DNA of 35,080 nucleotides from a virus. The stretch covers positions 1-35,080 of IMG/VR virus record IMGVR_UViG_3300032238_001215. One strand, 5' to 3'. Below are positions 10,680-33,047 of the stretch, one piece after another. Under the pieces are notes generated by a model. The model saw nothing but the letters and a program-made list of their open reading frames with translations, had not been told where the DNA came from and ran no database searches. The position numbers and the translations under genes are program-made. Numbering within the stretch: the stretch's first letter is position 1; each line of letters begins with the position of its first letter.

Positions 10680-11123
10680 CTAGAAGTTCACTACAATTCT
10701 TTTCTCTTTTAAGTGGATGTCGACAGTGTTTGGAGCCAATGGCACAGCTTTGGGTCCCTCTTCGATCTCAATCTCCCACTTCTCACCGCGGAGCTGTGTG
10801 GCAGTGTCAAATTCTAAGTCAAACTCTACACTTTCGTCATTCTCGTCAAGCACAGTGAATGTGGCATGGGCAGCCACATTCACCACACTCACGTCTATGT
10901 CTTTGATGCCCCAAGTTCTCTCGTCAAGTTGGGCATTCCACTTTACGTCAGCCACAGCCCACTCAGTCTCAACATAGGACAAGTCAGCAAGCCAAAGACC
11001 CTTTAGTTGGGCTTGAAGACGAACCCACTGCTCGTGGCCGTAGAAATCTATGGCTCCACGTTCAACTCTAGTGGAATACTGTGATTCTTGCTCTTGCAAG
11101 ATCCGGCTGACAGACGCTTTCAT
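10680..11123 (-). CDS. hypothetical protein
   Basis: The 147-residue, acidic, beta-rich protein (IDVSVVNVAAHATFTVLDENDESVEFDLEF) has no recognised motif. Its ATG overlaps the stop of the tubulin-like gene as ATGA, so the two should be translated together. It may be an accessory of the tubulin-like protein, but only position supports that. Confidence 0.6.
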   Translation of the reverse strand: MKASVSRILQEQESQYSTRVERGAIDFYGHEQWVRLQAQLKGLWLADLSYVETEWAVADVKWNAQLDERTWGIKDIDVSVVNVAAHATFTVLDENDESVEFDLEFDTATQLRGEKWEIEIEEGPKAVPLAPNTVDIHLKEKRIVVNF

Positions 11124-12253
11124 TTTGGCCAGGGTTCAGCTGAGTCAATTACATTGCCAAACTTTCTAAGTTCGGCCAACTTGTCAGTCGGTCGTCCCAA
11201 ACCACCAATGATGGTGTAGACCACCAAGCCAGGTTTATTGCCACGATAGATGCCACGATGAACAGTGTTTCCAGGCTTAAGGATTCTGGTCAGCTGCTCA
11301 AATGCGGTGTCAAGATTGACCTGTGGAACCTCATTCAAGACATCCTCTGATCCAATGATCATTGCACCAGCTGTGTTGCCAGTCTCAATTGAGACACCAC
11401 CACTGAGGATGTTCTTCTTCAGTGAGTTTCTGATGGCAAACGAGATGCCCGTGGCATCCTTCCAATTCTCCACTGGAGTTGCACCGAAGGTGATCAGTCC
11501 AGAATCGAGAATCGTCTTAAGGTCTGATGGGTCGAATGATGTGTAACGACTCTCACGAATGGCCGTGAGGTTGAAGAGGTGGAATAGGGAGAGAAGACTA
11601 CGATTGGCAGTGTCCCAGAATGGGTCCACAGCGAGTTTTGGATAGAGGGTAGAAATCTTCTCATTGTCTACAAGGATCAGAGGAGAAACGATGCCCTTCT
11701 CGACCAAAGCAAATACATCACGAAGAACGTTGTAGGCATTAGCATTCAGCTTCTGGCCCTCAGAGATCTTTGGCAGAGCCAGTACCACGCCAACTTTTTG
11801 GCTGCTGGTTTTCAATGACTGTTGCAGCTCAATGGCCACATCCACCAGGTGCAACAAGGTACCGGATCCAGTGCCGCCAGCAGCCGATGCACAGCAGAAT
11901 ATGCGGTCAAAGCCTGGACCAAAGGAACGACGCATGAAATCCAAGACGTCTTCCTTTTTGTCTTTGATGAGTGAGGCCGCCACAGCCGGATTCTTGCCAG
12001 CGCCACCAGTGCCAATCAACAGCTTTCTATCAGCTGGCATGTCAATGGTGGCCAGATCCTGCTCAGAGGTGTTTATGACGGCGGTACGCTTGTACCCCAT
12101 CTTCCAGAAAGTTTGAGCCAGACGGCCACCACCTTGACCAGCGCCTACAACGGCAAACTTGAAGGCACCTTGAAAGGTATCTTCAATCTCTATGGTCTTC
12201 TCCTCCTCGGGCAAGGGGATATCGGGTACCTCAACATCAAAGTTGTCTGACAT
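11120..12253 (-). CDS. tubulin/FtsZ-family GTPase (TubZ/PhuZ-like)
   Basis: This 377-residue protein should polymerise with GTP. It has the nucleotide loop VVGAGQGGGR (35-44), a GTGGAGKNP segment (81-89) and the tubulin signature GGTGSGT (126-132). It lacks the C-terminal FtsA/ZipA-binding peptide of bacterial FtsZ, and the rest diverges from FtsZ, as in phage PhuZ and plasmid TubZ proteins. PhuZ centres the phage nucleus in large Pseudomonas phages and TubZ segregates plasmids; either role fits here, and the two parS sites in the window make a segregation role worth considering. ATG 12253 is preceded at 6 bp by GTAGTTA. Confidence 0.85.
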   Translation of the reverse strand: MSDNFDVEVPDIPLPEEEKTIEIEDTFQGAFKFAVVGAGQGGGRLAQTFWKMGYKRTAVINTSEQDLATIDMPADRKLLIGTGGAGKNPAVAASLIKDKKEDVLDFMRRSFGPGFDRIFCCASAAGGTGSGTLLHLVDVAIELQQSLKTSSQKVGVVLALPKISEGQKLNANAYNVLRDVFALVEKGIVSPLILVDNEKISTLYPKLAVDPFWDTANRSLLSLFHLFNLTAIRESRYTSFDPSDLKTILDSGLITFGATPVENWKDATGISFAIRNSLKKNILSGGVSIETGNTAGAMIIGSEDVLNEVPQVNLDTAFEQLTRILKPGNTVHRGIYRGNKPGLVVYTIIGGLGRPTDKLAELRKFGNVIDSAEPWPK

Positions 12254-13225: not shown

Positions 13226-14164
13226 TTAAATACGGACTGAGTTTGTCAAGAAGTCGCTGTAGGCGATTGGCAGACCCTTGTCCAGGTCCACCTTTGGGGT
13301 CCATGAAGTGATGTTTCTAAGGCGACTGGAATCGAGAATCTTGCGAGGTGTGCCATCTGGTTTAGATGGATCCCACACAATTTCGCCCTTGTAGCCCACA
13401 ACCTTGGCAACTTTGTGGACCAAGTCTCTGATTGAGATGTCAGAACCATAGCCAACATTGACCAAGCCACTGACCTCACTCATCTCTGCGAGACTAATAG
13501 CCGCATCAGCCAGATCATCTGAGTAGAGAAACTCTCTAAGTGCTGACCCTGTTCCCCAGCAAGAATAAGTGGGATCACCTTTGATCTTGGCTGCATGCAG
13601 CTTGGCAATAAGACCTGGAATGACGTGGGACGCTGTGGGGGAGTAATTATCATTGGGCCCATACAGATTTGTGGGCATCAATGCCACATAGTTGAACCCG
13701 TGTTGAACCCTAAAGGCCTCACACATCGTGTAGCCTGCAATCTTGGCCACAGCATAGGCTTGGTTGGTGGGTTCCAATGGTCCAGACAGGAGCTCTGACT
13801 CCTTGATGGGTTGCTTGGCCATCTTTGGGTAGATGCATGAGGAACCGAAGAATACAAGCCTCTTTACGTCACAAAACAAGGAGGCATGTATGACGTTGTT
13901 TTGAATCTGAAGATTGTCCAGTATGAAATCGCCTGGACGTGTTGAGTTGGCCACAATGCCACCCACAGTGGCAGCCGCAAGATACACCACGTCTGGGGAG
14001 TGTTCCTTGAACCAAGCCATCACAGAGGCTTGGTCCCTCAGGTCTACATTGCGACGATCACAGGTAAGGACACACAGATTTTTTCTGTGGGCCCAAGTTC
14101 GATTTAGGCCACGAATTATTGCTGACCCCACGAGACCTTTGTGCCCAGCCACGAAAATCTTCAT
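13226..14164 (-). CDS. fcl: GDP-L-fucose synthase
   Basis: This 312-residue SDR-family epimerase/reductase converts GDP-4-keto-6-deoxy-D-mannose to GDP-L-fucose with NADPH. It shows the nucleotide-binding GHKGLVGSA (7-15), SSCIYP (108-113, catalytic Ser) and the Tyr137-x-x-x-Lys141 pair in YAVAK. LREFLYSDDLADA and the total length match Fcl/WcaG. The upstream enzyme Gmd is not in the window and may be elsewhere or supplied by the host. With the dTDP-glucose dehydratase-like gene and several glycosyltransferases it forms a glycan toolkit. Confidence 0.9.
   Translation of the reverse strand: MKIFVAGHKGLVGSAIIRGLNRTWAHRKNLCVLTCDRRNVDLRDQASVMAWFKEHSPDVVYLAAATVGGIVANSTRPGDFILDNLQIQNNVIHASLFCDVKRLVFFGSSCIYPKMAKQPIKESELLSGPLEPTNQAYAVAKIAGYTMCEAFRVQHGFNYVALMPTNLYGPNDNYSPTASHVIPGLIAKLHAAKIKGDPTYSCWGTGSALREFLYSDDLADAAISLAEMSEVSGLVNVGYGSDISIRDLVHKVAKVVGYKGEIVWDPSKPDGTPRKILDSSRLRNITSWTPKVDLDKGLPIAYSDFLTNSVRI
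13227..13233 (-). promoter_or_regulatory. start-site motif GTATTTA, N4 before ATG 13222
   Basis: Minus-strand GTATTTA, 4 bp before the ATG. It overlaps the stop codon of the upstream gene. Confidence 0.35.
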
Positions 14165-19472: not shown

Positions 19473-19500
19473 AAAAAGAAGGCCCACCTCGCGGTGGGCC
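19473..19500 (-). terminator. rho-independent terminator of the tmRNA transcript
   Basis: A perfect 8-bp stem GGCCCACC/GGTGGGCC (19500-19493 and 19488-19481) with loop GCGA, followed on the minus strand by TTCTTTTTG. It ends the transcript carrying the tmRNA and the tRNA-like element. Confidence 0.9.
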
Positions 19501-19605: not shown

Positions 19606-20065
19606 TGGTGGACCTGGAGGGAGTCGAACCCTCGTCTTGACAAGGACTAAAAGAGACGTGAATCACATGCTTTAGACATCTGTAGATTAGCACAGCTTAG
19701 CCGATGTCCGCTAGGCTGTGCTTTTACCACTGAGCCCAGTGATCAAGTCAACCAGCACACCTGATTGATCGTGTCTCGCAATTTTCGCCCACACCCCTTA
19801 GCGAGCATCAGGGGGTGGACGGTGTGGCTTAAGCCACAGCAGCTTCGGTCTCAGCAACCAGAGCGCCGCCCTCAGTGAGGAACTCATCAGCATTATTGAT
19901 GATGTAGTCCGCCTGGGCGAGGAGGCTCTCCACGCTAGCATCGACTTCCGCGTCAACAGCAGTATTGGCAGTTGATGTTTTAATGGGTAGTTTTAACGAG
20001 GCCAACCATCATCCTCGGCATGTGGTCTACAATCGGCATCTGCCAATCGAAACCAGTACAGGCCC
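19606..20065 (-). ncRNA. ssrA: tmRNA (ssrA) with an extended tag reading frame
   Basis: tmRNA rescues stalled ribosomes and tags the nascent protein. The 5' end GGGCCUG pairs with CAGGUCC before an encoded CCA. Close by follow UGGUUUCGAUU, AUGCCGAGG...GGUUGGCCUCGUUAAAACUA (pseudoknot 1, as in E. coli) and, at the 3' end, CUAAAGCAUGU...GACGAGGGUUCGACUCCCUC (the T-arm). The resume codon is probably GCC at 19969-19967. From there 46 sense codons (beginning ANTAVDAEVD, ending AETEAAVA) run to TAA 19831-19829, which sits in a GTGGCTTAAGCCAC hairpin like helix 5. E. coli encodes 10 residues. The whole RNA is 460 nt, against 363 nt in E. coli. SmpB is not in the window, so the host protein may serve. 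Confidence 0.9.
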
Positions 20066-24881: not shown

Positions 24882-25475
24882 TCAAGCGACGGGTTTGCTG
24901 TGTAAACAAAATTCAGAAAGGGCCATCATTCTCATGAGATTTTTCGCTCTTTTGCGCGCATGGTACCAGGCATAGGTCCACTTACGGCTCTTCTCCCGGC
25001 TCTTCTCCACGTCGATCATGTACCTCACTCGTGACCGCGCCCTGATCTTATCCATGTTGGCCTCACGCCAGGTTTTTACCCGTGCTATGATCTTGTCCTT
25101 GTAGACCTTATGATAGACCTTTTTACTTGCTCTGACTTTTTCCTTGTTGGCCTCACGATAGGCCCTATTCTTTGCTGATATCTTCTCCTTGTTGGCCCTA
25201 TAATGGGCTTTAGCATAGGATCTCCTCTTATCTTTGTTGGCCCGCCTCTTCACTAAGAGCTTCTCCTTATTGGCCCTATAATTGGCTTTACGTTGAGATC
25301 GTACTTTCTCCTTGTTGGACTCACGATAGGCCTTTTGCTGGGCCGAAATCCTCTCTTTGTTGGCCGCATAGTAGATCTTACGGAAGGCACTGTCCTTTAT
25401 GCGTAGCTTCTCCTTATTGGCCTCACGATAGGCCTTATGGTAGGCCTTACGTTTTTCAGGACATTTAATAGGCAT
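24882..25475 (-). CDS. tandem ANKEK-repeat protein, copy 1
   Basis: This 197-residue, extremely basic, helical protein is built of about 13-residue repeats of the form (A/K)-Y-R-E-A-N-K-E-K-(I/V)-x-(A/S), more than ten in number, ending in KRAKNLMRMMALSEFCLHSK. It is a paralogue of the next gene upstream, with which it shares 63 of 65 bp at the 3' end. Repeats of this type are common in phage genomes, but I know of no assigned function; the charge suggests nucleic acid binding. Confidence 0.65.
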   Translation of the reverse strand: MPIKCPEKRKAYHKAYREANKEKLRIKDSAFRKIYYAANKERISAQQKAYRESNKEKVRSQRKANYRANKEKLLVKRRANKDKRRSYAKAHYRANKEKISAKNRAYREANKEKVRASKKVYHKVYKDKIIARVKTWREANMDKIRARSRVRYMIDVEKSREKSRKWTYAWYHARKRAKNLMRMMALSEFCLHSKPVA

Positions 25476-25498
25476 AAGTCAGGTGGACACTTTCTGTC

Positions 25499-25930
25499 TT
25501 AGGTTTTGCTGTGTAAACAAAATTCAGAAAGGGCCATCATTCTCATGAGATTTTTTGCTCTTTTGCAACCATTCCACAAGTCCATAGATCTCGTCCTTTG
25601 TCTAGCTCTAAGTTTATCTTTGTTGGCCTCATAGTAGGTCTTCAGATGAACTCTATTTTTATCTCTGATTTTTTCCTTGTTGGCCTCACGATAGGCCTTC
25701 TGGCTAGCTGAGATTTTTTCCTTGTTGGCCTCACGATAGGCCTTTTCTCTTGCCAATATCTTCTCCTTGTTGGCCTCACGATAGGTCCTATTCTTTGCCG
25801 ATGTTTTCTCCTTGTTGGCCTCACGCCAGGCCTTTTCCCTAGCTGAGATTTTTTCCTTGTTGGCCTCACGATAGGCCTTAAGCCAGGCCTTACGGTAAGC
25901 TTGTTTTTCGTCAACAGTAGCACTACTCAT
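25499..25930 (-). CDS. tandem ANKEK-repeat protein, copy 2
   Basis: The 143-residue product is a shorter, more regular form of its neighbour. Five to six repeats read YREANKEKISA with little variation, then a divergent KDKLRARQRTRS segment and the shared KRAKNLMRMMALSEFCLHSK end. At DNA level the repeats are 39 bp long and nearly identical. It lies 23 bp upstream of the start of copy 1. Confidence 0.65.
   Translation of the reverse strand: MSSATVDEKQAYRKAWLKAYREANKEKISAREKAWREANKEKTSAKNRTYREANKEKILAREKAYREANKEKISASQKAYREANKEKIRDKNRVHLKTYYEANKDKLRARQRTRSMDLWNGCKRAKNLMRMMALSEFCLHSKT
25675..25880. repeat. 39-bp coding tandem repeats
   Basis: Five to six consecutive units with the constant block TTGTTGGCCTCACGATAGG recur every 39 bp. 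They encode the ANKEK repeats and are prone to copy-number change by recombination. They are not CRISPR: no spacers, and the frame stays open. Confidence 0.8.
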
Positions 25931-32054: not shown

Positions 32055-33047
32055 CTAGATAAGCCACTTATCGGCGTTATTTTTTGTCCAAAGGATCGTT
32101 GACTTCAGCGACTCACTGAGTGGCATTGGTATCTTCCAACCCAATGACTTCATCTTAGAATCGTCCAACGCGTAGCGCATGTCCACACCAGGGCGATCAC
32201 TCTTATCTGGGCTTACCATCACATAGTTCAACTTCTGGCCAAGAGTATCAGCAATGATAAAGGCAACTTCAAGGTTGGTCAGTTCCATCTCACCAGCGAT
32301 GTTGTACTTCTCGCCAGCTCTTGATCCATGCTTCAGGATGTGAAGGACAGCAGCAGCCACGTTGCGAGCATGGATGTAGAATCGGCTGGAGCTTCTGGTA
32401 CAAGTTTGGTCAGAGTGAATGAAGACTGTCTCACCGGCCATGACCTTGCGTATGGTCATGGGCACAAACTTCTCAGGATCCTGTCTCTCACCAAACACAT
32501 TCATGGTGTGGGTGTTGATGACGGGCAACCCATAGGTGTTGTGAAAGGCCACACAGAATTCCTCAGCTGCAGCCTTGGACGCAGCATAGGGATTGCCGCT
32601 GTTGTAGCGGTCGTCCTCCTTGAATGAGACGCCATCTGGTGCTGGACCAAAGACCTCATCGGTGGAGAAGTTGACAAAAGTCTTGAGGTTTTTCAACCCA
32701 CGAGCATACTGAAGGAGATTGACTGTGCCCACCACGTTGTCCTCAACAAAGGACATTGGGTCGCTGATTGACCGATTCACGTGGGATGCTGCAGCCAGGT
32801 GAAGGATGATGTCAATCGGGCCGATGTTGCGTGCCACCGACTGGTTGATACTGGCACGGAGGTTGTGGTAGACCACCTTGAGTCGGTGCTTGTTAGCCTC
32901 AAAGCACTCGATGTCAGTGATTCGGTTAAGATTGCCGGCTGAGTCCAGCCGGTCCAACACAACTATCTCCCAGTCTGTGTTTTTCCACAGATGCTCAAGG
33001 ATGTGGTGGCCAATGAACCCTGCCCCGCCAGTTAGTAGTACTCGCAT
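32055..33047 (-). CDS. NAD-dependent sugar-nucleotide dehydratase (dTDP-glucose 4,6-dehydratase-like)
   Basis: This 330-residue extended SDR enzyme has GGAGFIG (7-13), LHLAAASHVNRSI, the catalytic STDEVFG (128-134) characteristic of RmlB-type dehydratases, YAASK (154-158) and a MNVFGERQDPEKFVP segment. It would make a 4-keto-6-deoxy sugar nucleotide as a precursor for the glycosyltransferases. The exact base and sugar cannot be read. The gene ends about 55 bp before a strong terminator. Confidence 0.8.
   Translation of the reverse strand: MRVLLTGGAGFIGHHILEHLWKNTDWEIVVLDRLDSAGNLNRITDIECFEANKHRLKVVYHNLRASINQSVARNIGPIDIILHLAAASHVNRSISDPMSFVEDNVVGTVNLLQYARGLKNLKTFVNFSTDEVFGPAPDGVSFKEDDRYNSGNPYAASKAAAEEFCVAFHNTYGLPVINTHTMNVFGERQDPEKFVPMTIRKVMAGETVFIHSDQTCTRSSSRFYIHARNVAAAVLHILKHGSRAGEKYNIAGEMELTNLEVAFIIADTLGQKLNYVMVSPDKSDRPGVDMRYALDDSKMKSLGWKIPMPLSESLKSTILWTKNNADKWLI

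Follow-up and report, generated by a model that had tools for sequence, protein, structure and literature searches.

Long tmRNA tags with a conserved, predicted helical core in uncultured phages

The virus record analyzed here over its whole length of 35,080 bases (the window), which carries genes of large phages, encodes a one-piece tmRNA with a tag reading frame of 46 codons, and this tag belongs to a family of long, acidic tags that is spread over many loci of uncultured viruses. We have not seen this phage tmRNA family described before. The tag peptide of the window is ANTAVDAEVDASVESLLAQADYIINNADEFLTEGGALVAETEAAVA, followed by the stop codon. Judged by comparison of the related sequences, the conserved feature of the tag is an internal core of 16 residues and not its length. 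tmRNA tags are usually regarded as short degrons, but here the most conserved part is an internal predicted helix. That a long tag with a short predicted helix is common to many uncultured phages suggests that phages control the fate of the proteins rescued.

The tmRNA gene of the window and its resume codon

The gene matches the Rfam tmRNA model RF00023 over its full length (model positions 1–374 of 374) with 93.3 bits against a curated cut-off of 47 (Table 1), and its long frame closes with TAA, which confirms the tmRNA with a 46-codon tag frame that the original prediction had proposed. The acceptor stem GGGCCTG/CAGGTCC is 7 bp long with all positions paired by eye and with G-U as the third pair, which we take to be the G3-U70 alanine identity; the end of the molecule is therefore tRNA-Ala-like. 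The acceptor stem, the CCA, the pseudoknot-1 region, the A at position -4 and a tag with a stop codon are all shared with standard one-piece tmRNAs (RF00023), whereas the 46-codon tag, its conserved internal core and the failure of ARAGORN to find the gene set the tmRNA of the window apart from them. The region of pseudoknots 2–4 shows several broken pairs in the Rfam alignment. Terminator-like elements such as the one downstream of the gene were found three times in the window stretch, compared to 1.3 expected from shuffles.

The UGC column of the covariance model falls on positions 19970–19968, which makes GCC at 19969–19967 the resume codon, exactly where it had been predicted. Among the 12 in-frame GCN codons of the tag, an A at -4 precedes just two, codons 1 and 44. 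All 69 distinct relatives described below have A at -4 as well; at -5, 62 of them carry T and seven carry C. The best-founded rule comes from E. coli tmRNA, where A86, at -4 from the resume codon, is reported to set the frame: the RNA is inactive with C or U at this position but withstands U85C, and its spacing from pseudoknot 1 is of no critical importance (PMC2481249).

Table 1. Features of the tmRNA gene and of other genes in the window
Feature	Position in window	Strand	Basis or remark
One-piece tmRNA gene, 460 nt	20065..19606	(-)	RF00023, 93.3 bits, E 2.8e-35
Acceptor stem, 5' half GGGCCTG	20059..20065	(-)	Third pair G-U; pairing by eye
Pseudoknot-1 stem, 5' arm TGATGG	20006..20011	(-)	Complementarity search
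Pseudoknot-1 stem, 3' arm CCATTA	19981..19986	(-)	Complementarity search; 11 nt upstream of resume codon
Resume codon GCC	19967..19969	(-)	Rfam alignment; A at -4, C at -5
Tag frame, 46 codons + TAA	19969..19829	(-)	Relatives in IMG/VR
18-nt extension at tag start, codons 1–6	19952..19969	(-)	DNA alignment, 39 distinct relatives
Conserved core LLAQADYIINNADEFL, residues 16–31	19877..19924	(-)	
C-terminal AVA of tag	19832..19840	(-)	
Acceptor stem, 3' half CAGGTCC + encoded ACCA	19606..19616	(-)	
Terminator-like stem-loop + T run, downstream of tmRNA	19481..19500	(-)	Consensus match only
Tubulin/FtsZ-family protein	11120-12253	(-)	
Two distinct nucleotide-sugar epimerase genes	13226-14164 and 32055-33047	(-)	Both of family phrog_540

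A family of long tags and the selection on its core

Relatives of the tag were found in IMG/VR in several ways. With a scaffold pattern, L015 and L017, whose tag is identical to that of the window, and L035, whose tag is AEDNTDALLAEANYIINHVDEFLTEDEYELAA, were recovered; L062 came from a motif scan; and scans with alignments of three and of 33 tags found 57 and 97 viral loci with related tags, respectively. The loci of the second of these scans that enter the family counts are those among the matches listed, 80 of 97. The matches listed include at least 69 distinct tag DNAs and at least 54 distinct peptides, with lengths of 32 (seven peptides), 33 (13), 34 (17), 35 (14), 45 (two) and, for the window, 46 residues. 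The 135 underlying entries contain some contigs twice, so that the tags were counted as the 69 distinct DNAs; the count leaves out L176, whose tag begins with A-K, was missed by the pattern and has one K, and L093, L171 and L190, which are cut by contig ends.

The shared core of the family tags is LLAEAEYIFNNADEFL, and the common form of the tag is AEDNTSD-LLAEAEYIFNNADEFL-acidic linker-YALAA. Ten columns are invariant in 33 aligned tags, including L, L, A, A, Y, I, N, D and F of the core, and the window fits the core pattern LLAxAxYIxNxxDEF with LLAQADYIINNADEF (alignments A3 and A4). The two 45-residue tags, of L182 and L187, have an insertion after the core that is DVVDSVVDFFNG or near it (around 2001-2135). 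In the window, the resume codon of 39 distinct relatives is aligned with GCG at 19951, whose -4 base is T, and the linker after the core is longer than those of the relatives. With the 18 extra nucleotides at its start and this longer linker, the tag of 46 residues can be read as a family tag with longer ends. The original prediction had presented the 46 codons as an unusual insertion; the long frame stands and exceeds the 8–35 residues given for tmRNA tags in a review (PMC8012679), as had been stated, but it is not unique, being a family tag of 32–35 residues, built around a conserved core of 16, to which the window adds an 18-nt extension and a longer linker.

LAA ends 52 and AA ends 56 of the 69 distinct tag DNAs, while 13 are without an AA end. 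The tag ends in the family would be ordinary for a degron of the ClpXP type, to which the original prediction had likened the -AAVA end; the AVA of the window is a variant. The net charge of the 54 distinct peptides ranges from -8 to -12, and K, R, P and W are found in none of them.

Almost all the relatives lie in recognizable tmRNAs. In a first set, 49 of 50 family records matched RF00023, 47 of them over the cut-off, and the tag was inside the match in 49/49; in a second set of 43 records, all 32 that belong to the family matched and 30 were over the cut-off, the two below it (L158 and L165) being cut by contig ends. Both sets together gave matches in 81 of 82 family records, with 77 over the cut-off. 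The RNA scaffolds nearest to that of the window are found outside the family, in L002 (tag of 35 residues) and L030 (tag of 30 residues). The 5' part of the window tmRNA gave DNA scores of 83 with L002 and 81 with L030, compared to a best score of 51 among 68 family sequences, and the 3' part gave 47, 36 and a family best of 36, respectively; for the tag DNA the order was reversed, with 59 for the family vs. 21 and 17 for L002 and L030, which is background level. The tags of L002 and L030 may be distant forms of the family tag, and a mosaic origin of the window tmRNA by exchange is therefore not required.

Variation in the core is mostly synonymous, as the comparison of synonymous and nonsynonymous changes proposed by the original prediction revealed: in the tag frame, pN was 0.064 and pS was 0.594, whereas pN/pS in the other two frames were 0.190/0.144 and 0.192/0.052, all values being pairwise means over related sequences and not tree-based. 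Entropy at core codon positions 1, 2 and 3 was 0.33, 0.09 and 0.89, and a previous count, made on 31 distinct cores, showed the same concentration of core variation at third positions. Amino-acid entropy was lowest in the core, at 0.34, and higher in spacer (1.08), linker (1.44) and end (1.04); the interior of the tag is therefore more tightly constrained than its degron end. The tmRNA of the window and those of L063 and L064, which lie in a block of 92.9% identity, differ at 10 sites, none of them in the tag (chance 0.025). Separately, overlapping self-similar matches to L063/L064 at about 24890–25880 of the window suggest internal repeats.

On this pattern of substitutions, the core is under strong purifying selection at the peptide level and in this frame only, and what the tag frame from GCC at 19969 preserves is its peptide, the 16-residue core in particular. 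An open run of 46 codons alone is unremarkable, its chance being (61/64)^46 or ~0.11; it is the homology, with 54 related peptides, length steps of whole codons and mostly synonymous core variation, that raises the frame above chance. Length differences among the homologues are whole codons, and the frame-breaking indels that the original prediction had named as evidence against it are not seen. Its description of the frame as acidic and helical is supported, the helix by prediction.

Predicted structure and possible roles of the tag

AlphaFold2, run on 35 tags, predicted a helix at residues 3–25, a break at 26 and a second helix at 27–45 with a mean pLDDT of 77.8; the peptides being short and so much alike, their alignment contributed little. 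The prediction is made with high confidence up to about residue 30 and with low confidence beyond it, with pLDDT of 58 and 54 for the blocks of the second helix. The hydrophobic moment of the core was exceeded in 103 and 142 of 5000 shuffles. Searches with the core in PDB and Pfam found nothing convincing; the weak matches to BepA in PDB (E 0.051) and to three single-member Pfam entries (best 0.038) were judged to be due to chance.

It is plausible that the core would be a functional domain that is put on stalled proteins. We propose that during infection the tmRNA would be charged with alanine and free stalled ribosomes together with the SmpB of the host; both SmpB and the proteases are taken to be those of the host, as SmpB was found in none of 26 carrier records, SspB in none of 17 and ClpP in five of 25. 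The rescued protein would then receive a tail in which two helices, the first acidic and the second short, with a break at N-N between them, may form a docking site for a specific partner, for which a host or phage adaptor or an unfoldase domain are candidates. Behind this docking site, an acidic linker would lead to a hydrophobic end (LAA in most tags and AVA in the window) to be gripped by ClpX-type unfoldases. In this way the phage may keep ribosomes free and influence the speed with which aborted proteins are removed or the protease that removes them. In the longer form of the window, the core would be kept and the spacers lengthened. Given that the interior of the tag is more conserved than its end, a docking site placed on an ordinary degron appears to be the most economical reading. 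That the tag is such a two-part degron, with an ordinary hydrophobic end and a conserved helical docking site for a putative partner, we consider an evenly balanced proposition. The broader idea that large phages use trans-translation for addressing, with a tag of 32–46 residues whose docking peptide (helix, N-N break and helix) directs every rescued protein towards one partner, in place of the host route or in addition to it, is more tentative, and we lean somewhat against it. If true, an address peptide would be encoded in an RNA gene and would have been overlooked because the standard finder misses or misreads the tmRNA. The retention of the predicted internal helix across differing phages and its absence in one bacterial scan suggest that stalled proteins are steered to a different fate by phages; the core may also serve as a small bait for finding the partner.

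Several other roles can be considered for the tag. The acidic peptide might be a solubility or anti-aggregation tail that acts until any protease does, with no specific partner. The net charges of -8 to -12 and the absence of K, R, P and W from all 54 distinct peptides are what such a tail would have, but charge alone would not fix residues, and the ten invariant columns make this role unlikely. Less probable still is a role inside the ribosome, where ~32–46 residues would fill the exit tunnel, push the aborted protein out or tune termination. The exit tunnel holds about 32–35 residues, the very range into which 51 of the 54 distinct peptides fall, but a pure length effect leaves both the conservation of the core and the freer spacers unexplained.

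Mimicry of Pup by the tag is very improbable. Both are acidic and have a helix with similar hydrophobic spacing, and a single hhalign comparison of the tag with the Pup helix gave a probability of 12.8 and P of 0.0022; the long helix of Pup (residues 21–51) is reported to bind the coiled coils of Mpa (PMC8755798). Pup, however, is a free protein and not a tag encoded in an RNA gene, and its GGQ or GGE end is found in 0/54 tags. The comparison with Pup was chosen after the fact, and the likeness does not exceed its nulls: the tag profile ranks Pup sequences between 21 and 1260 of 2606, with shuffled Pup scoring higher (7.2 vs. 5.2), and shuffled Pup profiles equalled the real hhalign score in 3/200 (columns shuffled) and 11/200 (pattern kept). 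The resemblance was accordingly rejected, neither a significant profile similarity nor a GGQ/GGE end being found. WhiB, which is a mark of actinobacterial phages, was found in 0/50 records (including L002, which is outside the family); this speaks against Pup mimicry, and an actinobacterial host was rejected as well. Five viral contigs (L221–L225) encode Pup-like proteins with GGQ or GGE ends, in DNA that may be of phage or of host origin.

We give equally little credence to the tmRNA being a degenerate passenger or a decoy, the tag of which is never put on proteins. RF00023 scores in the family are as low as 57 bits even with a full-length match, SmpB was found in 0/26 carrier records, and a tmRNA-like fragment of phage DS6A is reported to inhibit tmRNA (PMC4131195), but a much lower pN than pS, confined to this one frame, is not what an untranslated frame would show, nor would it be expected to keep the stop codon and the A at -4 in 69/69 tags. 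Finally, we hardly credit resumption at codon 44 (19840), which is near the TAA; the frame upstream of it would then be open by chance or be conserved for the RNA. Codon 44 shares the A at -4 and is in this formal sense an exception to the finding that the resume codon is far from the TAA, but Rfam puts the resume codon at 19969, the conserved core would be left untranslated, core variation is mainly at third positions of the tag frame, and the frame is open to the stop in 69/69 distinct relatives, contig-end-cut members left out.

Known tmRNAs, carriers and hosts

The 2025 tmRNA database holds 97,179 unique sequences, of which 79 are from phages, and its main search combined ARAGORN with BLASTN; the most frequent tag length is 10, tags of two residues are reported, and the accessible part of the paper reports no long tags (PMC11915505). 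The literature on tmRNA, surveyed by title and abstract, does not describe the long-tag phage family, a survey that does not establish its absence from print. The tags examined in named phages have 9–25 residues and none has the LLAEAEYIFNNADEFL core, in contrast to the 32–46 residues of the family; they include ANSNFALAA and ANSMNASAFALAA as annotated and tags of 13–21 residues in five phages by ARAGORN. Like the family tags, that of Gordonia phage GodonK, read by eye as AEADVVVSDSDIAEIEAYANEAALV, is acidic, long (25 residues) and without K and R. GodonK (L215; MK620899, 84631-85159, minus strand) matches RF00023 with 90.3 bits over 529 nt, and its tmRNA is unannotated in the stretch examined and missed by ARAGORN; an annotated tRNA-His lies inside the match. 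Huge phages with tmRNA and SmpB (Al-Shayeb et al., 2020; PMC7162821) are likewise large phages with a tmRNA, but that study is based on ARAGORN and does not discuss tags in its accessible part, and SmpB was found in none of the 26 records of the family searched for it.

ARAGORN found 27 genes in 63 family sequences that were cut out with full flanks, giving the right tag in six, a truncated tag in 20 and another in one; in 61 whole loci (L062–L122), it found 19 genes. With the right tag in 6/63, tmRNA catalogues built on ARAGORN may understate such tags.

Relatives in cellular genomes, plasmids and phage records were also sought. When genomes of 84,980 species of bacteria and archaea were scanned once with the pattern A[EQ]A[EN]YI[FI]N, 44 stretches and no confirmed relative resulted; the pattern misses the window form ADYIIN, so that the negative result applies to the commoner core form. 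The scaffold pattern found nothing in bacterial genomes and is too strict to say much. By tblastn, the reach of which is limited by short queries, no relative of the tag was found in 50,697 phage records or in 72,556 plasmid records, a match with E of 1 in a phage structural protein being judged to be due to chance. The window tmRNA had no blastn match among phages, and a search with the tmRNA of L089 gave 71 records, none of which covered 80% of the query and which, among the matches listed, matched its 3' end only.

The longest contigs that carry long tags have up to 224,703 bases. When the 51 loci with flanks were joined by at least two common neighbour families, eight clusters resulted, while one common family gave a single cluster; the most frequent neighbour family was in no more than 14 loci. 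A terminase (phrog_2) was found in 10/25 records, including L002. The terminases of two carriers are nearest, with ~35% identity, to those of Synechococcus, Sinorhizobium and Agrobacterium phages, presumably T4-like, which names no host. ClpP was found in five of 25 long-tag carriers (L203–L206 being the records of L070, L069, L065 and L163), SspB in 0/17 records and a Clp ATPase in 1/17, the latter as a fragment that is ClpC-like by eye in L208 (217 kb, the record of L154). With SspB in 0/17, SmpB in 0/26 and ClpP in 5/25, there is no phage-encoded partner that all carriers share; the absence of a gene is weak evidence here, as the records are fragments.

In addition to the tmRNA, the window contains four tRNAs, as found by ARAGORN, and genes for a thymidylate synthase, an amidoligase, two nucleotide-sugar epimerases and a class II ribonucleotide reductase, the top phage match of which (46.3% identity) is in a 485-kb uncultured phage. 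The tubulin/FtsZ-family protein had no tblastn match in the 50,697 phage records. An amidoligase and a gamma-glutamyl cyclotransferase family protein are encoded together in this one phage (6970-7929 and 21823-22206, minus strand).
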